From: Gammaproteobacteria bacterium
GTDB taxonomy: Bacteria > Pseudomonadota > Gammaproteobacteria > VBWC01
Reading direction: 5' to 3'
Length of the DNA: 64,000 bases
Assembly: GCA_006218035.1 (NCBI GenBank)
Contig: VBWC01000011.1
Span: 1 to 64,000, forward strand
In this document: positions 131 to 38,058 of the stretch, piece by piece
How positions within the stretch are numbered: the stretch's first letter is position 1
Layout: the number at the start of each line of letters is the position of its first letter
The notes under the pieces: generated by a model
What the model was told of the DNA's origin: nothing
The model's input: the letters and a program-made list of their open reading frames with translations, nothing else
Databases searched by the model: none
Made by a program: the position numbers and the translations under genes

Positions 131-1486
131 CTATTTTCCAATACAAAAACTGGCGAATATCCGGCCGAGCAGATCGTCGGACGTGACCTCGCCGGTGATT
201 TCACCGAGCGCGCGCTGGGCCTGGCGCAGGTCTTCGGCGAGCAGCTCGCCGGCGCGCGGCCCGGTGAGTTGCGTCCGACCGTTGGCCAGCGATGCGAGCG
301 CACGGTGCAGCGCATCGAGATGGCGGCGACGCGCAATGAACACACCTTCGCCGGCGGGCTGATAACCGACACACTCGGCGAGATGTCGGCACAGCTGGTC
401 GATGCCGGCGCCGGATTTGGCCGACACGGCGACTTCGGTACCCAGCTCACCGGTCACTATTTCGGGCTGGCGGCCGGTCAGATCGATCTTGTTACGCACG
501 ATCGTTAATGCGGGGCCGTGCGGCAGCTTGTCGATGATCGCCCGATCCTCGCGCGCCACCCCGTCGCGGTCGTCGACGATCAGCAGCACGCGATCGGCTC
601 GGGCGATCTCGTCCCAGGCACGCTGGATGCCGATGCTTTCGATCGGGTCGGCGCTGTCGCGCAACCCGGCCGTATCGATTATGTGGACGGGCAGTCCGTC
701 GATGGCAATACGTTCGCGCAGCACGTCGCGGGTCGTGCCCGGGATGTCGGTGACAATCGCGGCGTCGCGTCGCGCGAGACGGTTAAGAAGGCTGGACTTT
801 CCGGCGTTCGGCTGGCCGGCGATGACAACGTTGATGCCTTCCTGCAACAAACACCCTTGCTGCGCGGTAGCTGTCAGCGTCTGCAGCCGGGCGGTAACGG
901 CGTCTAGCGCCGTGGCGATGCGGCCATCGGACAGGAAATCGATTTCGTCTTCGGGAAAGTCGATCGCCGCCTCGACGTAGATGCGCAATTGCACCAGTTG
1001 CTCGACCAGCGCATGAATCGTTTGCGAGAACTCGCCCTGCAGGGATCGCACGGCCGAACGTGCCGCCTGCTCGGACGACGCGTCGATCAGGTCGGCAATC
1101 GCCTCGGCCTGGGTCAAATCGAGTTTGTCATTCAGGAAGGCGCGCTCCGAGAATTCCCCGGGCCGTGCCACGCGAGCGCCCAGTGCGACGACGCGCTTCG
1201 TCAGCAGATCAAGCACCACCGGGCCGCCGTGACCGTGCAGTTCGAGCACGTCTTCACCGGTGAACGAATGCGGCGCCGGAAACATCAGCGCCAGTCCCTG
1301 GTCCAGCGCACTGCCGTCCGCAGCGCGGAACACGGCCAGTTCCGCCCGGCGCGGCGCCGGCACGCGGCCTGTCAGCGCGGCGGCAATCGCGGCGGCCCGC
1401 GGTCCGCTGACACGGACGATGCCGATGCCGCCGCGCCCCGGCGGCGTTGCGACCGCCACGATGGTATCGAGTGAATGTTGGGTCAT
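131..1486 (-). CDS. mnmE: tRNA uridine-5-carboxymethylaminomethyl(34) synthesis GTPase MnmE (TrmE)
   Basis: 451 aa; N-term [28 protein letters not shown], GTPase motifs [12 protein letters not shown] and DIPGTTRD, C-terminal FCIGK; position next to yidC. Confidence 0.98.
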
Positions 1487-1554
1487 TTATGCCGAAGGCG
1501 CCCGGTACCGCGCGCGCCTTCGACGGTACGGCAACGCTCAGGTCCCTGTCAGCC

Positions 1555-2154
1555 TCATCTCGCGAGCGCGTGTTCCAGCTCGGCGAAGCTGTGCGCGACC
1601 TCGTAAACGTCCAGCGTGCCGCCGAGCTGGCGCCCGATCTGCGTGCTTGAGAAAATGCCGCGCACGCACTGCCAGCGTTCGGCGGAACCGCTGTCAATGA
1701 CCAGCGCATGCTGACGGCCGACGCGCCGCAGCGTTTCGACAATATCACCAACGCATGACCGTTCGATGTCGGCCAGGCTCAGCGCCTCGAGTTCGGCCTG
1801 CGGCGTCATGATGTGCTGTACCTGCACCTCATCGTGACTGCAGCCGGTCTTCAACATATATTGCATCGGCTTTTCACCGAGCACGTCGGTTGCCGTTAAC
1901 AGTCCGACGATATGGCGCTGCGCGTCCGTGACCAGCAACAAGCGCACGCCGCTGTGGATCATCTTCATGTTCGCTGCCATGACCGAAAACGTCGGCTCTA
2001 TCGTGACCGCCGGAACTTTTTTCAGATCCGTCATCACGTCCCGCGCCGGATTTTCCGGTGTTACCCGCGGCGGATAGAGCGGTGTGGCGCGGTGAAAGGT
2101 GACGCCGCGTTGCAGCAGCGTTGAAGAGAGCGGGGAAAACTTTCGCGAATTCAT
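1555..2154 (-). CDS. CBS-domain protein
   Basis: 199 aa; CBS-like segments SGVRLLLVTDAQRHIVGLLTATDVLG and GRQHALVIDSGSAERWQCVRGIFSSTQIGRQLG; exact start uncertain. Confidence 0.75.
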   Translation of the reverse strand: MNSRKFSPLSSTLLQRGVTFHRATPLYPPRVTPENPARDVMTDLKKVPAVTIEPTFSVMAANMKMIHSGVRLLLVTDAQRHIVGLLTATDVLGEKPMQYMLKTGCSHDEVQVQHIMTPQAELEALSLADIERSCVGDIVETLRRVGRQHALVIDSGSAERWQCVRGIFSSTQIGRQLGGTLDVYEVAHSFAELEHALAR

Positions 2155-2237
2155 AGGACACCTCCATATCGCGGCGGGTCGCCCTGAATAAACTAGTCCA
2201 TGCGGAAGGTCGCTGCAAGCCCACGTTCCGAACTAAC

Positions 2238-3899
2238 CTACGTGGCGGCCATTTTCTCTACGCGGTAGGTGATATACCACTGCTGGGCGATCGACAGGAC
2301 GCTGTTTGCAACCCAGTACAGCACCAGCCCGGACGGGAAAAAGGCGAAGAACGCCGTGAAGATGAACGGCAGCATCATCATAACCTTGGCCTGCACCGGA
2401 TCCGGCGGCGGTGGATTCAGCTTCTGCTGGAAGAACATCGTCGCGCCCATGATCACGGGCAGCACATAGTACGGATCCTTGGTCGACAGGTCGTTCAGCC
2501 AGAAAATAAACCCGGCCTGACGCAACTCGACGCTTTCCAGCAATACCCAGTACAGCGCAATAAACACCGGGATCTGCACCATGATCGGCAGGCAACCGCC
2601 GAGCGGGTTAATCTTTTCCTTCTTGTACAGATCCATCATCCCCTGGCTCATGCGCTGCCGGTCGTCGCCGTAGCGTTCGCGTAATTGCTGCAGCTTCGGC
2701 GCGAGTTTGCGCATGTTCGCCATGGACTTGTAACTGGCCGCCGACAGTTTGTAGAACGCGAGCTTGATGATCAGCGTCAGGATGATGATCGCCCAACCCC
2801 AGTTATTGACCACCTTATGAATATAATTCAGCAGCCAGTACAGTGGCTTCGACAGAATGGTCAGTATGCCGTAGTCGACGGTCAGCTCCAGACCCGGCGC
2901 CACTTCTTCGAGCTGGTGCTGCAGTTTTGGACCGACGAACAACCGCGTGTTATGCGTGACCGACGCGCCGGGTGCGGCGCTGATATCGGGTGACACCATC
3001 CCCAGTACGAAACGGCCGTCGGCCAGCGCCTTGCTGTAATAATGGTTGGTCTGGTCCTTGGTCGGCACCAACGCGCCGACGAAATAGTGCTGGATCATCG
3101 CCGCCCACCCGCCGGTGATGTCGCGGCTAAGGTTTTCCTTGGCCATATCATCGAAGTCGAATTTCTTGTACTTGTTCTCGTCGCTATAGATCACGCCGCC
3201 GGTGTAGGTATAGATGAACCGGGGGGTTTCTCCGTCGCCGGGGCGGGTGCGCTGCAATTGACGGTATATGCGCCCGCTCCATTCCTGCGGCGTATTATTG
3301 GTGACGGTGTGATCGATATCGATCAGGTAACTACCGCGGCGGAAGGTATAACTCTTGGTGACCTTGAGTCCGCTGTCGCTCACCCAGGTTAACGGCACCG
3401 TCAATTCGTCGGCACCATCGGCGAGTCGGAATTCCGTTTGAGCGGCGCTGTACAGCGCGTGATGATCCGGCGCCGCGGCGCGTGACAGCATGCCGGTCTG
3501 CGCAATGAACAGCCGCCCAGGCTCGTCCTTCATCAGGCGAAACGGCTGGTCGGGTTGGCCAACGACAACCGGATAGGCGCGCAGATCGACCTCGCGGAGG
3601 TCGCCGCCCAGGGTATCGATTTCAATATTGTAGACGTCGGTGATAACACGGATCCGGCCCGCGGATTTCAGGCCTTCGCCACTACCTTCGATCGGCGTAG
3701 CTTGGTTCGTCGCCGCCGCGCCGGTGGATGGTTGCTGTGCGGCCGGCACGTCCTGCGGCGGTAGCGCAGCGGCCACTGGAGCGGTTTCAGCGGGCGGGTT
3801 CGCCGCGTGACGCGCGCCGTAGTCCTGCTCCCAAGCCTGCCAGAGCAGCAGGACAACGAAGGTCAACGAGATGACAAGAAAAAGGCGCTGGTTATCCAT
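2238..3899 (-). CDS. yidC: Membrane protein insertase YidC
   Basis: [28 protein letters not shown]-term and conserved C-terminal insertase domain; start moved from 3950 to the MDNQRL methionine. Confidence 0.97.
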
Positions 3900-4131
3900 C
3901 GCAGGCGGCTTTGCCACAGGCGTGCGGCACCGGGTCAACCCCGCCGGCATGCCATGGGTGGCAACGACTCAAACGTTTCAGCGCGAGCCATGAGCCGTGA
4001 ACGGTTCCGTGACGCTCTATCGCCTCGGCGGCATACACGGAACAGCTTGGGTAAAAACGGCAATGGTTGCCCAGTAGCGGGCTGATCAGGTAACGGTAAC
4101 CGCGAATCAGGCCTGTCAGGATTTTCTGCAT
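3892..4131 (-). CDS. yidD: Membrane protein insertion efficiency factor YidD
   Basis: 79 aa; [47 protein letters not shown]; between yidC and rnpA. Confidence 0.96.
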
Positions 4132-4490
4132 CGTGCCAGTTTGTTCCAGTGTGCGTTCAGCGCCGCGCGCAATTCTTCATTGTTCTTCGCCGCGATGCCG
4201 CCGCGCGCGAGTACGACGATGTCGAGACCCTGCAACAGCTCAAGGTGCAGGCGAAAACTTTCGCGCACTACCCGTTTGATGCGATTCCGGTCGACGGCAC
4301 GGCGCGCATGTTTCTTGGATATCGCCAACCCGACTCGCGCCAGATCGCCATCGTTTCTTCTCGCCAGGACTGTCATACACCCGTTGGATGACTTCAGCGG
4401 CGCCTGAAAAACACGTTGGTAATCGCTCTGTTTCGCTAGCTTGTGCTGGTGGGAAAAACGTTTTAGTCCTGCACCCAATTCAGCAGACAA
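4116..4490 (-). CDS. rnpA: Ribonuclease P protein component
   Basis: [14 protein letters not shown]...[29 protein letters not shown] (RNR motif); between rpmH and yidD. Confidence 0.95.
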
Positions 4491-4491
4491 T

Positions 4492-4626
4492 CTATGCGCT
4501 CAGTCGCGCCCGGCCTTTAGCGCGACGACGCTTCAATACTCGCCGTCCGGCGGCGGTGCTCATGCGCGCACGAAAGCCATGTGTCCGTTTGCGCTTGATA
4601 ACGCTGGGTTGAAATGTACGTTTCAT
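4492..4626 (-). CDS. rpmH: 50S ribosomal protein L34
   Basis: [47 protein letters not shown] track start (4695) is too long. Confidence 0.98.
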
Positions 4627-4740
4627 AAGTTCTGCCCAAAAAAACGCCGCGAATACAGCGCAATTGAAAACGCGCAAAGATACTGAAACGACCATGGGGC
4701 TGTCAACGTTTTATCTTGCTGATACCTCGGAAAATATAGT

Positions 4741-4749
4741 TGTGGATAA
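4741..4749 (-). promoter_or_regulatory. DnaA box (TTATCCACA, perfect consensus on minus strand)
   Basis: TGTGGATAA in the rpmH-dnaA intergenic region, about 75 bp upstream of the likely dnaA start. Confidence 0.75.
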
Positions 4750-4823
4750 GTCATCCATGGCGGTATAGACTCCCAGCCTTCCTTGATTTCCAGACAGAAC
4801 CGCATACCTTAGGGGGATTTTTG

Positions 4824-6164
4824 GTGGTGGATCAGCCGCTATGGCAGCAGTGTCTTTATCGCTTAGAGTCGGAACTCACACCACAGCAGCTCAATACGTG
4901 GATACGGCCGTTACACGCCATCGAGGACGGCGGTTCGATTCGACTACTGGCGCCCAACCGGTTCGTGCTCGAATGGGTTAACGAGCGTCTGATTGGGCAG
5001 ATTACGAATATCCTCTCCCAGCTTGGTGACGGAGCGGCCCCCCAAATCAGCCTGGAGATCGGCAGTAAAAGCGTGCAAATTCAAGTAGCCGGCGCTAGCA
5101 AGCCGGCCTTTCGCCGTGCCGCAGATGTGGTGACGGACGCGCCTGTCAGCAACCTGCGTCAGGAATTTACTTTTGACAATTTCGTCGAGGGCAACTCGAA
5201 CCAGCTCGCGGTAGCCGCGTCCATGCAGGTCGGCGAGAACCCCGGTGGCGCGTACAATCCACTATTTATTTATGGCGGGGTTGGTCTTGGCAAGACGCAT
5301 TTGATGCATGCGATTGGCCACATGATGATCGCGCGCAAGCCCAACACGCGCGCCGTTTATCTGCATTCGGAGCGCTTCGTTGCGGACATGGTCAAGGCGC
5401 TGCAACACAACGCCATCAATGAATTCAAACGGTTTTATCGGTCAGTCGATGCGCTGTTGATCGACGACATCCAATTTTTTGCCGGCAAGGAACGCTCCCA
5501 GGAGGAGTTGTTTCATACCTTCAACGCGCTGATGGAGGGCCGGCAGCAGATCATCATGACGTGCGATCGTTATCCTAAAGAAGTCAAAGGGCTGGAAGAA
5601 CGCCTCAAGTCCCGTTTTGGCTGGGGTCTGACGGTCGCCATCGAACCGCCGGAACTGGAGACGCGTGTGGCGATTTTGATGAGCAAGGCGGCGCAATCAG
5701 ACGTCGTGCTACCCCATGAAGTTGCCTTTCTGATCGCCGAGCGTCTGCATGCCAACATCCGGGAAATGGAGGGGGCTCTGCGGCGCGTCGTTGCCAATTC
5801 TCGTTTCACCGGCCGGCCGATCACGCTGGAGTTTGCCAAGGAGGCACTCCGTGACCTGCTCGCCTTGCATGCGAAACTGGTTTCGATCGAAAACATTCAA
5901 AAAATCGTGGCTGAGTATTACAAGATTCGCGTCGCCGATTTATTATCGAAGCGGCGATCGCGTTCGGTTGCACGACCACGACAGATCGCCATGTCTTTGG
6001 CAAAGGAGCTAACGACCCACAGCCTTCCGGAGATCGGTGACGCGTTTGGTGGCCGTGATCATACGACTGTTTTACACGCCTGCCGAAAGATCAAGGAATT
6101 GAAGGACTGTGATCGCCGAATCAATGAAGACTGTGCGAACCTGTTAAGAACCTTGTCGAGTTAA
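4824..6164 (+). CDS. dnaA: Chromosomal replication initiator DnaA
   Basis: [52 protein letters not shown]; likely GTG start ([30 protein letters not shown]) rather than TTG at 4740. Confidence 0.97.
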
Positions 6165-6175
6165 TGTCGAGAAAC

Positions 6176-6184
6176 TGTGGACAA
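6176..6184 (-). promoter_or_regulatory. DnaA-box-like site (TTGTCCACA on minus strand, 1 mismatch to TTATCCACA)
   Basis: TGTGGACAA just after the dnaA stop, in the AT-rich dnaA-dnaN intergenic region. Confidence 0.55.
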
Positions 6185-6379
6185 GAAAATAATTTATCGC
6201 TTCGGTTTCTTTTGAACAGCTTTCCCACAAGCAAACGGTCATGTATACCAGGATAGTCCCATGGGTTTTATATTCGATAGCTATTTGTTATAAATAACCT
6301 TTTATCGCTTATCCCCCGTATGGATGGAGCTTAACAATAACAACAGGTAAGTATTTTAAAGATTTATATAATTAAGAAA

Positions 6380-7480
6380 ATGAAATTCACAATAAACAGA
6401 GAGGCCTTGCTAAAACCCCTGCAAGCGGTTGCCGGTGTGGTCGAAAGACGTCAAACATTGCCAATACTTTCCAATGTTCTGATCAGCGTCAAGGGAAAGA
6501 CACTTTCCATGACGGCGACCGACCTCGAGGTAGAGATGGTGACTCACAGTATGTTGAATGCTGACGAGACCGGGGACATCACACTACCAGCCCGAAAATT
6601 TCTGGACATTTGTCGTGCGCTGCCAGACCAGGCCAAGATTGAGCTGATCGCAGAGCAGGAACGCGCTGTTGTCCGTTCCGGCAAGAGTCGTTTTGTGCTG
6701 GCGACGTTGCCGGTAAAAGATTTTCCGAATTTGGGGGCGATCAAGGGCGCCTATGAATTCAACGTGCCGCAAAAGGCACTGAAGCGTGTGATTGAGCGTA
6801 CTCAATTCGCGATGGCGCAGCAGGACGTTCGTTACTATTTGAACGGATTAATGCTGGAACTCGGAAAAAACAGGATTCGCGTCGTTGCTACCGACGGACA
6901 TCGTCTGGCGCTGTGCGATCTTGAAGCGGATCTGACGGGCGCGGATCAGCAACAGGTCATCATTCCACGCAAGGGTGTTGTTGAGCTCGCGCGCTTGCTG
7001 GATGACGTCGAGACGCCCGTTGCCGTGTCGCTTGGTAGTAATCATATTCGTTTTACGACAGATACCTTGAGCTTCACATCCAAGCTTGTCGATGGACGTT
7101 TTCCCGATTACCAGCATGTCGTACCGCAGGGGGGGTCAAATATCGTGATAGCGGAACGCGATCCGCTGAAGCAGGCTCTGGTGAGGGCGTCGATACTCTC
7201 CAACGAAAAGTACCGCAGCATCAGCTTTCAAATGAGTAAAGGTAGCGTAAGAATTCTTGCCCGCAATCCGGAACAGGAAGAGGCCGAAGAAGAGGTCGCT
7301 GTTGATTATAAGGGCAAGGGTTTGGATATCGGGTTTAACGCTTCCTATATGCTTGACGCATTATCGGCGGTGACCACGGAGCAGGTCAGGCTTTCCATGA
7401 CTGATGCCAACAGCTGTTGCTTGGTCGAGGGCGTAGGCGATACGAGCTGTAAGTATGTTGTTATGCCGATGCGCTTGTGA
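6380..7480 (+). CDS. dnaN: DNA polymerase III beta sliding clamp
   Basis: 366 aa; MKFTINREALLKPLQAVAGVVERRQTLPILSNVLI ... YVVMPMRL. Confidence 0.98.
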   Translation: MKFTINREALLKPLQAVAGVVERRQTLPILSNVLISVKGKTLSMTATDLEVEMVTHSMLNADETGDITLPARKFLDICRALPDQAKIELIAEQERAVVRSGKSRFVLATLPVKDFPNLGAIKGAYEFNVPQKALKRVIERTQFAMAQQDVRYYLNGLMLELGKNRIRVVATDGHRLALCDLEADLTGADQQQVIIPRKGVVELARLLDDVETPVAVSLGSNHIRFTTDTLSFTSKLVDGRFPDYQHVVPQGGSNIVIAERDPLKQALVRASILSNEKYRSISFQMSKGSVRILARNPEQEEAEEEVAVDYKGKGLDIGFNASYMLDALSAVTTEQVRLSMTDANSCCLVEGVGDTSCKYVVMPMRL

Positions 7481-7574
7481 TCTGGCCCAGTATATTGTTG
7501 ATTTGTTGGATAGCGAAAGTTTGACGATTTTTCTGGACGTTTACCGCAATTAGAACCAAACACCACCTTATTTC

Positions 7575-8660
7575 ATGAGCCTGACCCACCTGGCGCTACG
7601 GGGCGTTCGCAATCTCGCGGATACGGAAATTTCGCCCGGTTGTTCTGTTAATCTGATTTGGGGCGAAAACGGCAGCGGCAAAACCAGTCTGCTCGAAGCA
7701 ATACACGTTCTGGGGCGAGCAAAATCATTCCGCAGCTCACGACTCTCACCGGTTATTCAGAACGGTTCAGATAGTTTGGTCGTTGTTGGCCGGGTGTTGA
7801 GCTCCTCTCATGGCACTGAAACTACGGTACGAGTCAATTTTGGCGCGTCTGGAGTAGAGCTATTCGCAGATCGGGTACCGCTAAACCGCGTATCCGACCT
7901 CGTGCTGAGGTTACCGCTGATACTCATCAATACCGATAGCCATCGTTTACTCGAGGATGGCCCCCGCTTGCGCAGGCGCTTTCTAGATTGGGGCGTGTTC
8001 CACGTGGAACACGGCTTTTTTGGGATGTGGAAGCGTTATTATCGCGCATTACGTCAGCGCAATTCCGCTATACGCCGGCAAATGGCTCCAAGCCAGTTAG
8101 CCGCATGGGAGGCGGAGTTATCCCAAGCTGCAGATCATATCGATGAGTTCCGCCGACAGTATCTGGCATTGATGGCTCCGTGGTTTGCGCGCTACGTTAG
8201 CAAGCTTCTAGATATCAATGCTGCGGAAATCGATTATCGGCGTGGATGGCCAGGCGGCCGGCCATTGATGGCGATCTTGGCGGAAGAGGCACATTTGGAT
8301 CGCCAGATTGGCTATACACGGCAAGGGCCGCACCGGGCAGATCTGGTGATCAAGATTGCAAACGTGCCGGCTCAGCAGGTGGTGTCACGCGGTCAGCAGA
8401 AGCTGTTGATTTGTGCACTGCATCTCGCACAGGCCGCGCTGATGGGCGAAGCGACGCGCACTCGTTGTGTGTTGTTGATTGATGATCTTGCGGCGGAGCT
8501 AGATCATGAACACCGCAATCGCTTGCTGAGCCTGCTCGTTTCCCTCGGTCAGCAGGTCTTTGTTACCGCTACCGAGCATAACCTGTTTGACCAGGCGCTA
8601 CTCGTGGGCCAGAAATTGTTTCACGTGGAACGAGGGAAAATCGCTGACGTAACGACGTAA
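7575..8660 (+). CDS. recF: DNA replication/repair protein RecF
   Basis: Walker A WGENGSGKTSLLEAIHVLGRAKSFR; VVSRGQQKLLICALHLAQ; VLLIDDLAAELD. Confidence 0.97.
   Translation: MSLTHLALRGVRNLADTEISPGCSVNLIWGENGSGKTSLLEAIHVLGRAKSFRSSRLSPVIQNGSDSLVVVGRVLSSSHGTETTVRVNFGASGVELFADRVPLNRVSDLVLRLPLILINTDSHRLLEDGPRLRRRFLDWGVFHVEHGFFGMWKRYYRALRQRNSAIRRQMAPSQLAAWEAELSQAADHIDEFRRQYLALMAPWFARYVSKLLDINAAEIDYRRGWPGGRPLMAILAEEAHLDRQIGYTRQGPHRADLVIKIANVPAQQVVSRGQQKLLICALHLAQAALMGEATRTRCVLLIDDLAAELDHEHRNRLLSLLVSLGQQVFVTATEHNLFDQALLVGQKLFHVERGKIADVTT
7996..8011. promoter_or_regulatory. parS: parS site (ParB-binding centromere), perfect palindrome TGTTCCACGTGGAACA
   Basis: 16-bp perfect inverted repeat matching the parS consensus TGTTNCACGTGNAACA, inside recF. 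Confidence 0.88.
8617..8632. promoter_or_regulatory. parS: parS-like site TGTTTCACGTGGAACG
   Basis: Matches the parS core except for the terminal base and non-palindromic flank; 3' end of recF. Confidence 0.65.
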
Positions 8661-8726
8661 GCCCACAGCTCTATGGATCATCGTTCCACCCAAAAAAACA
8701 ACCCAAAAATCAGCGCAGGATGCTAG

Positions 8727-11168
<2,442 letters not shown>

Positions 11169-21456: not shown

Positions 21457-21900
21457 TCATGTTCTTTCATCCGGCCGCCCGGTCGAGCAGTTCCAGCACA
21501 GGTCGAATTGTCCCTCGATCTCTTCTTGGCAACCTGGGCACGTCCAGCGCGTGTGTGTTTCGCCGTCCGAGCCCAAGGCGCGCTCAATTAGCGCGCGCGC
21601 AGTGGCCTCGTCCGACTCGTCGCACCAGAGTTCCGGCCAGCATTCGATCGGCGGTAGTTCGCCCGCGCCGCCGGCCAGGTGCTCATGTACGATCCTGCAT
21701 CGTATCCCTTCTTGTTCGAGGAGATTTTTCAAATGATTCGCCAGCAACGGATCGTGACAACTGTAGATATTTTTCACTATTGCAATTCCGTACGCTGTGT
21801 TTGGTGCCATAGCCCATGTTTCGAACAGCGAACAGGCCGCTACGCTTTGCTCCCGGCGGTGATTTTTAGCGCAGTAATCAGAAATTTGGCCAAATCTCAA
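21457..21900 (-). CDS. DUF2007-type protein with C-terminal zinc ribbon
   Basis: KNIYSCHDPLLANHLKNLLEQEGIRCRIVHEHLAGGAGELPP...; C-terminal WTCPGCQEEIEGQFDLCWNCS; start uncertain (an internal GTG at VKNIYS is plausible). Confidence 0.8.
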   Translation of the reverse strand: MRFGQISDYCAKNHRREQSVAACSLFETWAMAPNTAYGIAIVKNIYSCHDPLLANHLKNLLEQEGIRCRIVHEHLAGGAGELPPIECWPELWCDESDEATARALIERALGSDGETHTRWTCPGCQEEIEGQFDLCWNCSTGRPDERT

Positions 21901-21982
21901 CCATTCTTGTCAATTTTCCTTGACTTCCCATGTTTTCTTGTCAGACTCCAGCCTTATCGACTCCCTTTGAATTGGGGGCTAT

Positions 21983-22465
21983 ATGACGGAAACCGTGCTT
22001 AGCAGCCGTCAAGTTCGCCGCATTACCGGATTATCACAACGCCAACTACGTTACTGGCGCCAAACAGAATTAATCGTTCCTTCGCAGCAAACGTCTGGCG
22101 GGCACGCGCGTTATTCGTTTCTTGATCTAATCGCCCTAAAATCCGCCAAACGCCTGCTGGATGCCGGTGTGCCCCTTCAGCGTATTCGAAAATGTATCGC
22201 CTCGCTCGTCGAGCGTCTACCGGCTTTATCAGTACCGCTGGCGCAGGTGTCGCTGCTGGTGACCGACGATATCGTGCTCGTGTTTCATCAGGGATCTGTT
22301 TTCGATGCCCTTTCAGGACAGGAGTGGATATTTCCTGTCGCCGATCTTCTGCGCGATGTTGAGCAGATATCGGCCAAACCTGATGCCAGGCCGTTTTACC
22401 AACAGGAACTTTTTCCGGACATGGAGCAGGGCCCTTGGTCAGTGACACCGGCTGCTGGCATATAG
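21983..22465 (+). CDS. MerR-family transcriptional regulator
   Basis: VRRITGLSQRQLRYWRQTELIVPSQQTSGGHARYSFLDLIALKSAKRLLDAGVPLQRIRK, a MerR winged HTH. Confidence 0.92.
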   Translation: MTETVLSSRQVRRITGLSQRQLRYWRQTELIVPSQQTSGGHARYSFLDLIALKSAKRLLDAGVPLQRIRKCIASLVERLPALSVPLAQVSLLVTDDIVLVFHQGSVFDALSGQEWIFPVADLLRDVEQISAKPDARPFYQQELFPDMEQGPWSVTPAAGI

Positions 22466-22574: not shown

Positions 22575-23756
22575 ATGGAAATTATTGCTATTGCTAACCA
22601 GAAAGGCGGATGCGGCAAGACGACGACGGCGATCAATCTGGCGGCGTGCCTTGGCCACAATGGATTGCGCGTATTGCTGCTCGATATGGATCCACAGGGA
22701 CACGCTTCGCTAGGCCTGGGACAAAAGACCAGCGATCTCGCCAGCCTGTACGAAGTGTTTCTTGGTGAAACCGCGCTGCCCAACATCATCATTCCCGCTG
22801 TGGCGCCGGGGGTCGATCTCATTCCTGCCAATATCTCATTGGCGGCGGTGGAGCACGTGCTGGCCGACAAACCGGAACGTGAACGCCAGCTAGCCATATT
22901 TCTGGAAGATATTACACCTCGCTACGATTACGTGATTATCGATTGCCCACCGTCGCTCGGATTGTTGTCAATTAATGCGTTACGTGCGTCACATCAGGTG
23001 CTGGTACCGCTTGAGGCGAGCCGGTTTGCGCTGGATGGCATTGACCGGCTACATGAAATCATCGACCTTGTGTGCGAACAGTACGGGCTTAATTTGCCGG
23101 TAAGAATTCTTCCAACAATGATCGATTTGCGCACTCGCCTGGCAAAGAAATTGCTGCAGCTGATCCGCGAGGAGTTCGCGGACGAGGTATCCGACGTAAT
23201 GATCCGCTATACGATACGTCTGAAAGAGGCCGCTTGCGTGGGCCAATCGATTATCGAATTTGCGCCCGAGTCAGGCGGCGCGCGGGATTATCAGGCGTTG
23301 GCACAGGAAATCATCGAGCGCAGCAATCAGGTGAATTCGGTACTGATGGACAAGCAGCGCAAGAACTGGATGGCCGAAAACGCCCGGTCGCTTATCAAGG
23401 AGTCCGTGCCCGTCCGGGCGGTCGAGCTGCTAGAGCAGCAGAAGACGCGGTATCCCGCGAAACCTCCAACCCCTGCCGTGCGTATTCACGAGGGCGCAGG
23501 AAAACAGGAGGTCATTCTCGACTTCCAGGAGCTAAACGAATGCGATCTGAAGATTGCCGGCGACTTCAATGACTGGATTCCTGATCAGGGCGTAAGAACG
23601 ATCTCGATCAACGGTGCGGTAAAAAAGGTGCTTAATGTCACCCCAGGCCCGCATGAGTACCGCCTGATCATCGATGGTATCTGGCAACCGGATCCGACCA
23701 ATCCCAACAAGGTGCCGAATCCTTTGGGTGGCATTAATTCCTTGCTTAACGTATAA
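22575..23756 (+). CDS. ParA/Soj-type ATPase fused to a C-terminal glycogen-binding (AMPK-beta/CBM48-like) module
   Basis: Deviant Walker A NQKGGCGKTTTAINLA, Walker A' LLLDMDPQGHASLGLG, VIIDCPPSLGLLSINAL; C-term KIAGDFNDW...GPHEYRLIIDGIWQPDPTNP...LGGINSLLNV. Confidence 0.9.
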   Translation: MEIIAIANQKGGCGKTTTAINLAACLGHNGLRVLLLDMDPQGHASLGLGQKTSDLASLYEVFLGETALPNIIIPAVAPGVDLIPANISLAAVEHVLADKPERERQLAIFLEDITPRYDYVIIDCPPSLGLLSINALRASHQVLVPLEASRFALDGIDRLHEIIDLVCEQYGLNLPVRILPTMIDLRTRLAKKLLQLIREEFADEVSDVMIRYTIRLKEAACVGQSIIEFAPESGGARDYQALAQEIIERSNQVNSVLMDKQRKNWMAENARSLIKESVPVRAVELLEQQKTRYPAKPPTPAVRIHEGAGKQEVILDFQELNECDLKIAGDFNDWIPDQGVRTISINGAVKKVLNVTPGPHEYRLIIDGIWQPDPTNPNKVPNPLGGINSLLNV

Positions 23757-23785: not shown

Positions 23786-24562
23786 ATGGTTGAAAAAAAT
23801 GATCGCCGTACGCCCGGATCAAAAGAAAGGCTGGCCGAGATCAGCCACCATTTTCTTAGTGAACCGGCGGTGGTCGTGGATACCCGGCATCGTCCTTCGT
23901 TCATGCCGGTGTTACTGGACGACGTCGCAGATGTCTGGGTTGCCCATTGTATTGCCAGGGCGTTAACGACGCGTAAACGTCCCTCAACGGTTGTGTACGT
24001 TGAGCGCGAGATGCAACAGGCGGCGCTCGATACGCTCGCCAATATCGACCGGCGCGGACTCGTCGTGCCATTGACACGACGCGGCGACTGGAACGATCAC
24101 AATGCGGCGCAATTGCGCTTGCTAAAATCGATGGGAACACAGAACTCGCAGCACAAGTTTTGTCTGATCCCGATCAGCAATCTGCAAACGCCCGTGCTGG
24201 ATATCTTCGACCGGCTGTTGATGCCGGTAGCGCCGGGGCTTGCCGCGCTGCGTAGCGCCTATCTGCGCATCAAGCGATTGTCGAGTAATGCGAATCCGAT
24301 GATCGGCGTGACTATTATTGCTTGTGACAATCAGGAAGATGCGCGGCTCTATTTTGACAAGCTCGCCGTCGCCGCATTGCGCTTTCTCCGCCAGCGACTC
24401 ATCTATTGCGGTTATATTCCGCGCCATTTCGCGCAAGGTGCCGGCGTTGAGCCCGTTGTCCGCATAGCAGAAGGTATCCCGTCTGAACTGCGTGATGTGA
24501 CCGATCATATTCTCACCAATAAACTCTATGTGTCATTAACAACATCGGATACTCAGCCATGA
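23786..24562 (+). CDS. Uncharacterised protein, possible degenerate MinD/FlhG-like fold without Walker A
   Basis: Follows parA-like gene by 29 bp; C-terminal half ALRSAYLRIKRLSS...IGVTIIACDNQEDARLYFDKLAVAALRFLRQRLIYCGYIPRHF is reminiscent of MinD/FlhG C-terminal segments; no P-loop seen. Confidence 0.55.
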   Translation: MVEKNDRRTPGSKERLAEISHHFLSEPAVVVDTRHRPSFMPVLLDDVADVWVAHCIARALTTRKRPSTVVYVEREMQQAALDTLANIDRRGLVVPLTRRGDWNDHNAAQLRLLKSMGTQNSQHKFCLIPISNLQTPVLDIFDRLLMPVAPGLAALRSAYLRIKRLSSNANPMIGVTIIACDNQEDARLYFDKLAVAALRFLRQRLIYCGYIPRHFAQGAGVEPVVRIAEGIPSELRDVTDHILTNKLYVSLTTSDTQP

Positions 24563-25200: not shown

Positions 25201-28200
25201 TCACGGTGCGGCGGGCGGAGTATTGAATTGCCGCTGCTGCAGTGCCTTCTCAAGGTCGTCGAGCGAAAATTTCGGCTTCGAGAAGCGCGGCATTTGGACG
25301 GTTATCGCATTGTGCTTGCGTGACATTGATCCGTCCGCGGACGTGATTAACAGGTCGTATGCGCCTAACGGTAGTGCCGGCGACACAGACAAGTGAAGAC
25401 GGTCGCGTTCCATCGGCATTACCCGTGTTGCGGGAAGCAGCTGAACCGCCGTTACGGCCTCGCTGCCAGCGAAATACGCCACGTCCCGATAAACAAAAAC
25501 CCGGTCGACCGGATTGGCCAGTGTATATGTGGCGCCGGGTATGGGCGTCGCGTTGGATGAGACATTCCAGGTAAGAAACTCGCCGTCCGCGACAGTGGCG
25601 AAAAGCTGACCGCCTTTCGCCACAACCGACCGCGCACCGTTGAGGCGCATGGCAAGCCCGGTCGGTATTATCGACGACTCGCGACGGGAAAAGATCGACA
25701 ATTGCTGCTGGTCGTAGCTGACCAGATGTTCTTTCGTCGCCGTCAGCCGCGCGGGTTCATAGGCCAGTTGCACCCGCTGTTTGAGCAGAAGATTTTGCGG
25801 ATCCGCCGCATCAAACACCAGAATTTCCCGGTTCGGCATGGCCGTGAATAACGCAGTGCCATCGGTGAAGAAATCATTTATTCGTCCCGGATATCCGCCG
25901 ATGCGTACCGGGCGGCGACGCTGCTGAGTATCGAATATTGCCAGGCCGGTTGACCGGTCGAGGACATACAACCAGTGCCCCGCCGCCTGCATGCGTTCGA
26001 CATCCCCGGTGTACTCGAGCGTGCCGATCTGGTTCGCCTCAAACGGATTGCGTAAGTCGATGATAGCGATCGCGCCGTTTCTAAGTGCAACGTAGGCGAC
26101 GTCATCGAATACACTCAAGCGCATCGCGTCCGAGGCGAGTTCCACTGTAGTTACCCAGGTCGGATTCAGCGCGTTATTAATATCGAATACCTGCAGTCCT
26201 CCGGCCCCGTGCGCGGTGACAAGAAAATTACCGAGCGCCGAAATCTGGCTGATCCTGCCTCTCAGGCTATATTGCGACGATAGCCGAGGGCTGGCCGGAT
26301 CGGTAACATCCAGCATCACCAGACCGCCCCACCAGTCCAGCACGACCGCATGTTCACCGGCGACTCTGATGCCCCAGGCAGCGCCATCTGTGTCATAACT
26401 GGCGATGATCTCCGGCTTTTCCGGTTGACTGACGTCGACAATGTGTATGCCCGCCAGCCAGTCCGCGACGTATAATTTTTTCCCGTGCAAATCCAGTCCG
26501 CGCGCATTGCCGGGGGTCGCAAGGTGTGCGATCTGTTGTGGTTGATCGGGTCTGCTGATATCAAGAATATAGACGCCGTCGTTGAACGAGGTGATATAGG
26601 CGTAGTTGCCACCGACGACGATCTCCTCCACCTGTCCGCCGGGCACAAACGACCCAACGAGTAACGGCTGCGCCGGGTCGTGAACGTCAAAGACGAGCAG
26701 CCCGGCATCGTCATCGGCGACGAAGGCGAATCCATCCTTGATATCGAGCGACCAGGCCTTGCCCGGGGTATCGTATTCGCCGAGCAGTCGCGGTGCATGG
26801 GGGACCGCGATATCGATCACCTGGAAACCGCCTCGGTGGCTCGCCAGATAGAGCAGGTCACCAGAGATTTTCGGCGTGTACGCGAGACCGTTTATCGGTA
26901 GGTTACCGACCTGTCGAGGATGGCGCGGATCCTGAACATCGAGAACCTGCAAGCCGTGGTCGTCGTCAGCGACATAGGCGATACCGTTTTTGACCACGAC
27001 TCCCTTGGGCGAACCAGGTGTGTGAAAGCTGGATAGCAACCGCGGCCTGTCGGGAGCGGAGATATCATATATATGGATGCCGGAGAACCAGTCCGCCACG
27101 TAGACGATGTTCCCGTCAATAAATGCACGACGCTGGCCGCCAAAATTAACGCCTTGCCCGATATCGAGCAGTTCATTCGATAGAGACGGCGGTTCGGCGG
27201 AAAAATCGACGTGCACCACGTCGGAAGACATCGCCACCATCGCCTGTCGTCGATCGAGTGTGACAGCTTGCACGTTGCCTTTCGGTTTGTAGCCGGACAC
27301 TATCGTCGGCATCGCCGGTAGCGCAATATCCAGCAGTAACAGAGCGCCGTTCTCCCGGAGCAACAGTGCGTCGTCGCCCTGAACGACTATTTGCTTTATG
27401 ACGCCGACGCGATGGTGACTGGCTAACCAGCGTGGTGCCTGCGGGTCCGACACGTCAATCACGGTTAGTCCGCCACGACGGCTGGCCACCAGCAATAGAT
27501 CATCCCTTTTGGCGAGCACACCGGCGCCGTCTATCATTCTGAATATTCCGGCGGCCCCGAACTGCGCCGGGTCACGCAGGTCGAATGTCAGCAGGCCACG
27601 GGTGGTCGCGGCAAAAACAAATCCCTTGTGGATGACGATATGATCGATCGTATCTTCCGGACGTATATTAATTGTCTGTCTGATTTTCGCGGGGTTCTCG
27701 GTGTTTACAACGACGAGCTCGTTGTCGCGGTACAGCAGGGCGACGAGACCATCGCCGGCGGCGTAATCTTTGACGTCGTCCCGCAGCGGGTAGCGGGAGA
27801 GCGGCGCTGACTGGATCGGTCGCGACAGGTCGAATATCAACATCTCACGATCGCCGGACAGGACGTATGCCGTATCGCCGGCGATCCGGACCGCGAGGCT
27901 GTTAATGTCGGAAAGCACCCTGCTCTCCCCGGCGCCGTGGTTCTTGTCATCGAGGAATCGCGTCAGCAGACCAGCCGCGCCGGCGGCGATAATCAATTGT
28001 TCCTTGTAGACCACGATGTCACGGACGCCCTCAGCGAACGAAAACCGCGTGAGTGGTTGAGGACCGCCGGGGCTCAGCGTCGCATATAACGGGCTCTGCG
28101 CGGCGGCCGACACGCCGATCGAAATATCCGTCGCCTTGCCCAATACCACGGACTGCGGTTCGACGGATTCGATCACCGGTGGCTCGACGCCATATGCCAT

Positions 28201-28245
28201 GAGCGGCAATACGACCGCGCAAGCGGTTGTCAGGAGTCTCTGCAT
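25201..28245 (-). CDS. Large secreted LVIVD-repeat beta-propeller protein
   Basis: Signal peptide MQRLLTTACAVVLPLMAYG; many repeats such as LLVFDVHDPAQPLLVGSF, VYILDISRPDQPQQIAHL, IHIVDVSQPEKPEIIASY, LVMLDVTDPASPRLSSQY. Confidence 0.9.
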   Translation of the reverse strand: MQRLLTTACAVVLPLMAYGVEPPVIESVEPQSVVLGKATDISIGVSAAAQSPLYATLSPGGPQPLTRFSFAEGVRDIVVYKEQLIIAAGAAGLLTRFLDDKNHGAGESRVLSDINSLAVRIAGDTAYVLSGDREMLIFDLSRPIQSAPLSRYPLRDDVKDYAAGDGLVALLYRDNELVVVNTENPAKIRQTINIRPEDTIDHIVIHKGFVFAATTRGLLTFDLRDPAQFGAAGIFRMIDGAGVLAKRDDLLLVASRRGGLTVIDVSDPQAPRWLASHHRVGVIKQIVVQGDDALLLRENGALLLLDIALPAMPTIVSGYKPKGNVQAVTLDRRQAMVAMSSDVVHVDFSAEPPSLSNELLDIGQGVNFGGQRRAFIDGNIVYVADWFSGIHIYDISAPDRPRLLSSFHTPGSPKGVVVKNGIAYVADDDHGLQVLDVQDPRHPRQVGNLPINGLAYTPKISGDLLYLASHRGGFQVIDIAVPHAPRLLGEYDTPGKAWSLDIKDGFAFVADDDAGLLVFDVHDPAQPLLVGSFVPGGQVEEIVVGGNYAYITSFNDGVYILDISRPDQPQQIAHLATPGNARGLDLHGKKLYVADWLAGIHIVDVSQPEKPEIIASYDTDGAAWGIRVAGEHAVVLDWWGGLVMLDVTDPASPRLSSQYSLRGRISQISALGNFLVTAHGAGGLQVFDINNALNPTWVTTVELASDAMRLSVFDDVAYVALRNGAIAIIDLRNPFEANQIGTLEYTGDVERMQAAGHWLYVLDRSTGLAIFDTQQRRRPVRIGGYPGRINDFFTDGTALFTAMPNREILVFDAADPQNLLLKQRVQLAYEPARLTATKEHLVSYDQQQLSIFSRRESSIIPTGLAMRLNGARSVVAKGGQLFATVADGEFLTWNVSSNATPIPGATYTLANPVDRVFVYRDVAYFAGSEAVTAVQLLPATRVMPMERDRLHLSVSPALPLGAYDLLITSADGSMSRKHNAITVQMPRFSKPKFSLDDLEKALQQRQFNTPPAAP

Positions 28246-35544: not shown

Positions 35545-38058
35545 TTAGCGTTCTGGAACCGCGGTTGCTTCCGGCAGATATACCTTGACCGGGGACACGT
35601 GCCAGATATCTTCGGCGTATTCGCGTATCGTGCGGTCGCTGGAAAACTTGCCCATGCGCGCAACGTTTATGATGGCCTTGCGCGTCCACTCTTCCTGGTT
35701 GCTATATAGCGCTGCCACATCATTATGGCAGTTGATATACGATTCATAATCCGCGAGAAGCATGTACGCGTCGCCGTGGTGCAGCAACGCATTAACGACC
35801 GGCTCATAAAGCCGGGGCTGCTCGCGGTTAAAGAATCCGGATCCGATCATATCGATCGCAAGCCTCAGCGCGTTGTCCCGATCGTAATAAGTCCGCGGAT
35901 CGTAACCGCCGTCACGTAACTGCGCTATTCCATCGGTCGTGTGGCCGAATATGAAGATATTCTCGTGTCCGACTTCTTCGCGAATTTCGATGTTGGCACC
36001 ATCCAGTGTGCCAATGGTCAGCGCCCCATTCAGTGCAAATTTCATGTTGCTGGTCCCGGACGCCTCCATACCCGCCATCGATATTTGTTGCGACAGGTCG
36101 CAGGCCGGGATGATGTCCTCCGCCAGTGACACGTTATAGTTCGGAATAAACGCCACCTTGAGTATCTCCGATACCGCAGGATCGTGGTTCACGACGCCGG
36201 CAACGTCATTGATCAGCTTGATAATAAGCTTCGCCATGGCGTAGCCGGGAGCCGCCTTGCCAGCGAATATCACCGTACGAGGTGCCGTGTCGCCGCCCGA
36301 ATTGGCGCGAATCCGGTTGTATAGCGTAATTACGTGCAGCAGGTTCAGCAGCTGGCGCTTATATTCGTGAATCCGTTTGACGTGTATATCAAATATCGAA
36401 AGGCTATCAACGCTGATGCCAAGCTGCGACTTGATCAATGCCGCGAGGCGCTCCTTGTTCGCATGTTTTACGGCGCGGAACTCTTCGCGGAACCTGGCGT
36501 CGCTGGCGAGCGGGACCAGCTTGTTCAATTCATCCAGGTTCTTGAGCCAGCCATCACCAATATGTCGGCGGATCAAGGTGGACAACTGAGGATTGGCCTG
36601 ATTCAGCCAGCGCCTTGGCGTGACTCCGTTGGTCTTGTTGACGAATTTTTCCGGCTGCAGCCGGTAGAAATCCGCAAATATGGTTTTTTTCATCAGCTGG
36701 GTGTGGAGTTCGGCAACGCCATTCACCCGATGACTGCCAATGATCGCAAGATACGCCATGCGTACGCGGCGCCCGCCCTCTTCGTCGATGATGGACAGGC
36801 GGCGCAGCAGATCGGTATCGCCAGGGTGGCGGTGACCGACCTCGGTCAGGAAGCGATGGTTAATCTCGAAGATAATCTCCAGATGCCTCGGCAGCAGTCG
36901 TGAAAATGTCGCCACCGGCCAGGTTTCGAGCGCCTCCGGCATCAGCGTATGGTTGGTATAGGAAAACGTTCGGGTTGTGACCGACCATGCCTCGTCCCAC
37001 GGCGTACGGTGTACATCGACCAGTAGCCGCATCATCTCCGGTATCGCGATAGACGGATGAGTATCATTGAGCTGGATCGCGATCTGGTCCGGCAGCTCGT
37101 CGAACAGCTCATGATGTTTTTTGTACCGGAAAATAATGTCCTGTAACGACGCGCTGACAAACAGGTACTCCTGTTTCAAACGCAACTCCTTACCCATATA
37201 TGTGGTGTCGTCCGGGTACAGCACCTTGGAGATTGTTTCCGATCCGCTCTTGTGTTCGACAGCCTTGATGTAGTTGCCGCGGTTGAAGTCGCGCAGTTCG
37301 AAATCGCGCGACGATTTGGCGGCCCACAACCGCATGTTGTTAACCGTATGCGTGCCATAACCCGGGATCGGCGTGTCGTAGGCCATCGCCATGATGTCGT
37401 CCGTATCGACCCAATGATGACGGACCTTGCCGCTCTCATCGGGATACTGCACGGTGTGGCCGTAGAATTTTATCGGGTACAGAACCTCCGGACGCGGAAA
37501 TTCCCACGGGTTGCCGTAACGTAACCAGTTATCCGGATGCTCCACCTGGTAACCGTTTTCGATGTACTGATAAAACATCCCGTACTCGTAGCGTATGCCG
37601 TAGCCATAACCCGGTATGCCAAGTGTCGCCATCGAATCGAGGAAACACGCCGCCAGCCTGCCAAGGCCACCGTTGCCCAGCGCCGCCTCCGGTTCCATAT
37701 CGTCGATCTGTTCGAGAGTGACGCCGATACTTTCGATCGCGTGCTTGAATACATCAAGGATGCCCATGTTAAGCAGACTGTTGATCAACGTTCTGCCCAT
37801 CAGGAATTCCAGCGAAAAATAATAGACGCGCTTGGTTTCTACGCGGTAGTAGGTGCGCATCGTTTCCATCCAGCGATCGACGAGGCGGTCGCGAATCACA
37901 TAGGCCGCTACGTGATACCAGTCGCGCGCCGTGACCGTATTCAGGTCTTTGCCGATGAAATAGTGAAGTCGTGATGCGAGCGAGCGTTTAATCGACTCCT
38001 CGTCCAGCCCCAGCGGTTTGTTACCCAGCGTACCGGCATCCTTGTCTTTGGCCGCCAT
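35545..38058 (-). CDS. glgP: Glycogen/starch/alpha-glucan phosphorylase
   Basis: 837 aa; ALGNGGLGRLAACFLDSMATL, EASGTSNMKFALNGALTIGTLDGANIEI (PLP site). Confidence 0.97.
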   Translation of the reverse strand: MAAKDKDAGTLGNKPLGLDEESIKRSLASRLHYFIGKDLNTVTARDWYHVAAYVIRDRLVDRWMETMRTYYRVETKRVYYFSLEFLMGRTLINSLLNMGILDVFKHAIESIGVTLEQIDDMEPEAALGNGGLGRLAACFLDSMATLGIPGYGYGIRYEYGMFYQYIENGYQVEHPDNWLRYGNPWEFPRPEVLYPIKFYGHTVQYPDESGKVRHHWVDTDDIMAMAYDTPIPGYGTHTVNNMRLWAAKSSRDFELRDFNRGNYIKAVEHKSGSETISKVLYPDDTTYMGKELRLKQEYLFVSASLQDIIFRYKKHHELFDELPDQIAIQLNDTHPSIAIPEMMRLLVDVHRTPWDEAWSVTTRTFSYTNHTLMPEALETWPVATFSRLLPRHLEIIFEINHRFLTEVGHRHPGDTDLLRRLSIIDEEGGRRVRMAYLAIIGSHRVNGVAELHTQLMKKTIFADFYRLQPEKFVNKTNGVTPRRWLNQANPQLSTLIRRHIGDGWLKNLDELNKLVPLASDARFREEFRAVKHANKERLAALIKSQLGISVDSLSIFDIHVKRIHEYKRQLLNLLHVITLYNRIRANSGGDTAPRTVIFAGKAAPGYAMAKLIIKLINDVAGVVNHDPAVSEILKVAFIPNYNVSLAEDIIPACDLSQQISMAGMEASGTSNMKFALNGALTIGTLDGANIEIREEVGHENIFIFGHTTDGIAQLRDGGYDPRTYYDRDNALRLAIDMIGSGFFNREQPRLYEPVVNALLHHGDAYMLLADYESYINCHNDVAALYSNQEEWTRKAIINVARMGKFSSDRTIREYAEDIWHVSPVKVYLPEATAVPER

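Follow-up and report, generated by a model that had tools for sequence, protein, structure and literature searches.

A ParA-type ATPase fused to an AMPK-beta-type CBM48 module and encoded beside conserved partner genes: a candidate system for positioning alpha-glucan in bacteria

A ParA ATPase with a C-terminal CBM48 module

The window, a 64,000-nucleotide stretch of a gammaproteobacterial genome, carries a putative operon whose four genes (merR, parA-CBM48, and those for two proteins here called P258 and P193) all lie on one strand, the last two overlapping by 4 bases. The second gene (22575-23756, forward strand) is a 393-residue reading frame in which a ParA ATPase (approximately residues 1-250) is joined through a linker to an AMPK-beta-type CBM48 (residues 326-393); a GGAGG-type ribosome-binding site stands immediately 5' of its ATG. 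A preliminary description of this DNA had read the frame as a ParA ATPase fused to a glycogen-binding module, overlooking merR upstream and the two conserved genes downstream. The frame is exactly as described there, and since its front matches AAA_31 and ParA/Soj proteins and its tail matches AMPK-beta and AMPK1_CBM, the observation was correct. A chance or frameshift fusion is ruled out by a 95% identical copy in a genome of the same genus and by the 43 full-length copies returned by one genome scan, a count that includes both the window and this relative.

Within the ATPase domain (residues 1-250; 22575-23324, forward strand), residues 1-170 match Pfam AAA_31 (E = 7e-53), and the nearest solved structures in the PDB are ParA/Soj chains (E = 8e-52 and 3e-44). 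The deviant Walker A signature is present, with K10 and K15 found in all 52 alignment rows that cover them, and the Walker A' and Walker B aspartates, D39 and D123, occur in 53 of 53 rows. Also widely kept are R186 (49/53) and an arginine or lysine at position 215 (47/53), which, by analogy with Soj, we take to be basic residues of the DNA-contact type. By this alignment, the ATPase is intact in its catalytic residues, and the ParA/Soj motifs reported earlier for residues 1 to about 260 are borne out.

The C-terminal module (residues 322-393; 23538-23753, forward strand) matches Pfam AMPK1_CBM over residues 326-393 with 29.9 bits when scanned alone and 25.5 bits within the whole protein; the curated cut-off of 26.8 bits is thus passed by the isolated module. 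In a phmmer search of the PDB, the top 15 matches to the tail are all AMPK-beta chains (best E = 3e-7), and the two are co-linear up to the final residue. The host genome encodes no other AMPK1_CBM. All five sugar-contact positions named for AMPK-beta are occupied in the window copy (W334, R363, W370, L384, and N388), as had been suggested by eye. Across 51 aligned CBM rows, which include three pairs of identical sequence, both tryptophans are invariant (51/51 each), R363 is arginine or lysine in 48 and glutamine in three, and N388 is asparagine in 43 and aspartate in eight. The sugar-contact residues are largely kept among relatives, except at the Leu384 site, which varies and is mostly F, Y, or L. 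AMPK-beta is the nearest solved relative of the tail, but unlike the CBM48 of AMPK-beta/SnRK1, which sits on a kinase scaffold, the module is here attached to a bacterial positioning ATPase.

The linker (23325-23537, forward strand) ranges from 24 to 388 residues among relatives, as measured on the alignment, although the CBM48 stays at the far C-terminus. Such variation in length is as expected for a binding module on a tether. In three Nitrospirota loci (L018, L019, and L020) the linker reaches approximately 370-390 residues, with acidic repeats of the DEDDEELLAA type in L020.

A putative operon with two conserved partner genes

The first gene of the putative operon (21983-22465, forward strand) encodes a MerR-family regulator of 160 residues (Pfam MerR_1, E = 1.8e-15), and a homologue occupies the equivalent place in 18 of the 43 loci (gammaproteobacteria, Nitrospirota, and one unassigned). 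Its 5' region (21890-21985, forward strand) contains a partly conserved element consisting of GACAA...TTGTC-like arms followed by CTTGAC. In an alignment of 11 loci, namely the window and 10 related ones, the CTTGAC block is present in most and GGACAA...TTGTCC-like arms in several; the window copy has no exact inverted repeat of seven or more bases upstream of merR. This element is perhaps the operator of the MerR protein. Promoter and terminator scans performed no better than chance level.

The four-gene order recurs in gammaproteobacteria and Nitrospirota, and P258 and/or P193 also adjoin the fusion in Omnitrophota (L023), Planctomycetota (L032), Rokubacteria, and Acidobacteria. P258 (23786-24562, forward strand), homologues of which neighbour ParA-CBM48 in gammaproteobacteria, Nitrospirota, and Omnitrophota, is assigned an FlhG/FleN-like fold by a profile match to FleN (E = 1.8e-9) and by Foldseek with its AlphaFold2 model (pLDDT 81; FleN/FlhG, E = 5e-9). 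Unlike the MinD-like flagellar ATPases FlhG and FleN, it is encoded beside ParA-CBM48 with no flagellar genes seen alongside, and the GK[ST] P-loop (Walker A) is absent throughout the P258 alignment, which rules out an active ATPase.

P193 (24559-25140, forward strand) has no match in sequence-profile searches against the PDB and Pfam. Its AlphaFold2 model (pLDDT 83) resembles the PD-(D/E)XK proteins EndoMS/NucS (E = 5e-4) and XisH, with a Foldseek probability of 1.0 but TM-scores of only about 0.4. At the expected catalytic ExK, P193 reads SFD or DFD; its nuclease function has probably been lost, and an active nuclease is ruled out by the missing catalytic residues. A conserved LSxEExxFFxxL tail ends the protein. 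P193 is present in 12 of 369 gammaproteobacterial genomes, nine of which also encode a ParA of the subfamily described here. We infer that P258 and P193 are pseudo-enzymes acting as adaptors.

In seven Omnitrophota-type loci, the gene directly upstream of the fusion encodes a protein with one membrane span and a short charged N-terminus, and the partner in these loci may therefore be membrane-anchored. The outer part of this protein gives a weak CBM11 match (E = 0.047) that we do not count as evidence.

Partner N-termini resemble the ParA-binding motif of ParB

Near its N-terminus, P258 carries a conserved motif, about SKERLAEISHHFLSEP as taken from the motif listing (23816-23863, forward strand), with a helix predicted at residues 12-23. 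Partners in Rokubacteria, Acidobacteria, and Omnitrophota loci and in locus L034 start with LG[RK]GLEDISHLFLS, and the gammaproteobacterial form, that of the window included, reads xRLAxISHHFLS; the motif is carried by P258, or by P193 where P258 is missing. Its DNA pattern gave nine matches in 8 of 28 genomes, every one at a ParA locus, against none for a reversed-pattern control. One of these, the second match in the Omnitrophota locus L023, precedes a DUF4912 protein, and the match in genome G037 adjoins a second, CBM-less ParA. The protein encoded at L023:4209-5891, within this ParA-CBM48 locus, combines the partner motif with an extended basic stretch predicted as disordered, DUF4912, and a weak match to Glucodextran_B.

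The ParB proteins encoded beside Soj-type ParAs in the same data begin with GLGKGLDALI or RGLGRGLEALLG, the latter being the N-terminus of the host's own ParB. The core LG[RK]GLE is common to these ParB N-termini and to the partners in Rokubacteria, Acidobacteria, Omnitrophota, and other loci; the gammaproteobacterial motif retains just part of it, its xRLAxIS stretch being divergent. When the 22-residue motif alone was searched against the PDB, only spurious repeat matches were obtained. In ParB, the N-terminal motif is necessary and sufficient for ParA binding, with the R/K at its centre being important for activation (PMC12462528). Partners in other ParA/MinD cargo systems use a charged disordered N-terminus, as shown or suggested (PMC10241942). 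On these grounds, P258/P193 is the likely ParA partner.

The locus resembles ParABS in that ParA has all Walker residues and an adjacent partner whose N-terminus matches the LG[RK]GL motif with which ParB binds ParA. It differs in the CBM48 on ParA, in its position outside the Soj branch (see below), and in the partner, which is devoid of ParB and HTH domains: no P258 or P193 member has a Pfam match to a ParB domain. There is no parS near the operon; sequences resembling parS occur in the window only at 7996 and 8617, both in recF and approximately 14 kb away. Lacking ParB domains as well as a parS site, the locus is not a ParABS member, and we favour the view that it operates as ParA cargo-positioning systems do. 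McdAB, which distributes carboxysomes, and other ParA/MinD cargo systems likewise combine a ParA-like ATPase with a partner bearing an N-terminal interaction peptide (PMC10241942), and a metabolic cargo is a likely further common point. In contrast to McdAB, the fusion is seen with neither an McdB-like partner nor carboxysome genes, and the cargo-binding module would be on the ATPase.

Distribution and separability of the modules

The preliminary description knew of no characterised ParA with such a tail. The architecture recurs: the 43 copies come from seven named phyla, Gammaproteobacteria, Nitrospirota, Omnitrophota, Planctomycetota, Rokubacteria, Acidobacteriota, and Latescibacterota. Of 369 gammaproteobacterial genomes sampled evenly, 16 encode a close ParA of the subfamily, and 14 of these 16 carry the CBM. 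A tree of 98 ParA domains places the Soj-type proteins (37 rows, without CBM) on one separate branch with support of 100/99, and every CBM-bearing row falls outside it, alongside a few CBM-less relatives. This pattern suggests a single early fusion of ParA and CBM followed by losses, of which a tree drawn with a midpoint root gives no proof.

The modules are found apart as well as together. The ParA of L034 has the CBM, whereas same-subfamily ParAs in L113, L115, L043, L044, L048, L049, and L141 are without it, and several of these keep motif-bearing partners; CBM-less members occur in f35 and in Desulfobacterota-type loci. In the single-contig genome G121, merR, a stand-alone CBM48, P258, and P193 are kept, and ParA is reduced to a remnant. 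G374 and G175 retain P193 with no ParA nearby. Conversely, P193 is absent from the whole genome in three gammaproteobacterial carriers (f81 and f82), whose fusions are orphans. The modules are thus separable, and in some hosts the CBM may function independently of the ATPase.

Two of these loci deserve description. In G121, the stand-alone CBM48 (L142:3980-4420) lies between merR and P258 and is preceded by the ParA remnant. At L141:5436-7189, a second ParA locus in an Acidobacteria genome, a motif-bearing P193 is followed by the CBM48-less ParA, which has a different C-terminal tail also present in Desulfobacterota-type ParAs.

Co-occurrence with glycogen metabolism

A strong GlgA (GT5) is encoded in all 14 fusion-bearing gammaproteobacterial genomes, compared with 205 of the 369 overall (hypergeometric 2e-4; by genus 8e-4), an association that may be partly due to genome size or shared ancestry. 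Across all phyla, 32 of 43 carrier genomes have a strong GlgA; four Rokubacteria without GlgA have GlgE, an enzyme detected in just 1 of 14 control genomes, so that 36 of the 43 have one or the other. Neither a strong GlgA nor GlgE was found in the other carriers, six Planctomycetota and G030, most of which have phosphorylase-like and CBM48 enzymes.

In the host, GlgP is encoded inside the window (35545-38058, reverse strand), which also contains glucokinase, 6-phosphogluconolactonase-like, and FBPase genes; GlgA lies on another contig, and the genome encodes a GlgB-type CBM48 protein. The architecture, the sugar-contact residues, and the link to glycogen metabolism thus hold up more strongly than first claimed, given the spread across phyla, GlgA in every gammaproteobacterial carrier sampled, GlgE in Rokubacteria, and the host GlgP, with the Planctomycetota carriers as an exception for the metabolic link.

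A possible positioning system for alpha-glucan

We favour, with a probability of roughly 0.5, a ParA-type system for the positioning and inheritance of alpha-glucan in which P258/P193 serve as ParB-like adaptors. The ATPase would be physically tied to alpha-glucan (glycogen) through its own C-terminal CBM48. ATP-loaded ParA dimers would bind the nucleoid, and the flexibly tethered CBM48 would keep glycogen particles, or alpha-glucan still being made, attached there, until the ParB-like N-terminal peptide of P258/P193 triggered ATP hydrolysis and thereby release. Repeated capture and release would spread glycogen over the nucleoid and share it between daughters, instead of leaving it piled at the old pole. 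The operon would probably be regulated by MerR.

Several features argue for this reading: the intact catalytic and presumed DNA-contact-type residues of ParA, the C-terminal position of a CBM48 with both tryptophans, the recurrence of the fusion across phyla with adjoining partners, and the match between LG[RK]GLE and ParB. The co-occurrence with GlgA or GlgE, the presence of GlgP, glucokinase, and FBPase genes in the window, and the L023 gene that joins the motif to DUF4912 and Glucodextran_B point the same way. A positioning system also fits because the adjoining gene encodes a proposed adaptor whose motif resembles the one with which ParB binds ParA. Other features speak against it. In known ParA positioning systems, the cargo is held by the partner and not by the ATPase; here the CBM sits on the ATPase. 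Seven carriers have neither a strong GlgA nor GlgE, some ParA relatives lack the CBM, G121, G374, and G175 lack a complete or neighbouring ParA, the f81/f82 carriers lack P193, and the gammaproteobacterial motif is only partly ParB-like.

The main rival is a glucan-sensing switch, which we consider unlikely. The CBM48 would report the glycogen level, as in AMPK, and would control the ParA ATPase or pull ParA off the nucleoid, so that some other cargo (a chromosome region, or FlhG-related or membrane machinery) is positioned, or expression is tuned, according to the carbon store. The AMPK-beta type of the module, the transcriptional regulator at the head of the operon, and the membrane protein upstream of the fusion in several Omnitrophota would all suit such a switch, as would the resemblance of P258 to the FleN/FlhG family, regulators of transcription and flagella, and the retention of CBM48, P258, and P193 without ParA in G121. 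However, the conserved context shows no separate cargo, a ParB-like motif is found in the partner, and linker length varies too much for tight allosteric coupling between CBM and ParA.

We give little credence to a system unrelated to glycogen, in which the CBM48 would bind a protein or another glycan, such as its own partners or an envelope polysaccharide. Planctomycetota carriers without GlgA and GlgE would be explained, as would the replacement of the leucine contact by F or Y in many rows and of N388 by D in eight, but the invariance of both stacking tryptophans, the mostly kept K/R and N contacts, and GlgA or GlgE in most carrier genomes speak against this reading. Since the same partner families also serve ParAs that have no CBM, the module is not required for binding them. 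Ordinary DNA partition of a chromosome or mobile element, with the tail irrelevant, is very improbable: the Soj-like sequence of the ParA domain and the distance of approximately 15 kb between the locus and dnaA would suit it, but the ParB-type/parS route is disfavoured by a partner without ParB domains, by the distance of the parS-like sites, by the well-supported, CBM-less Soj branch, and by a separate soj/parB pair encoded elsewhere in the host, whose full ParB matches both the ParB N-terminal and HTH domains.

Returning to alpha-glucan positioning, we advance only tentatively, at somewhat short of even odds, the broader proposal that the system is an old, multi-phylum means of storage-polymer inheritance: an analogue of ParABS in which glycogen replaces the plasmid, the ATPase grips it via CBM48, and two apparent pseudo-enzymes, one FlhG-like and one nuclease-like, act as the ParB-like adaptor. 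A search of the open-access literature, to which it was confined, found no paper on ParA fused to CBM48, in line with the preliminary description, and the system may be the first machinery known to place or apportion glycogen inside bacterial cells. In a csrA mutant of Escherichia coli, glycogen accumulates at the old pole to the exclusion of the chromosome, and the cell inheriting that pole ceases to divide (PMC4836754); unmanaged glycogen is thus costly. If ParA does handle glycogen here, this would be a first active mechanism for inheritance of the polymer; it would extend the known cargos of ParA to a polysaccharide and point to a candidate connection of carbon storage with the nucleoid. 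Partners of other orphan ParA proteins can also be sought through the conserved motif.

Genomic surroundings of the operon

Adjoining the operon downstream (25201-28245, reverse strand) is a gene for a secreted-looking protein of 1014 residues with LVIVD repeats, not found at the other loci. The neighbour on the merR side (21457-21900, reverse strand) encodes DUF2007 with a zinc-ribbon-like end and recurs elsewhere only in the same-genus genome. The window opens on the replication-origin region (131-11168), in which, with names assigned by eye, mnmE, yidC, rnpA, dnaA, dnaN, recF, and a gyrB-like gene follow in order.
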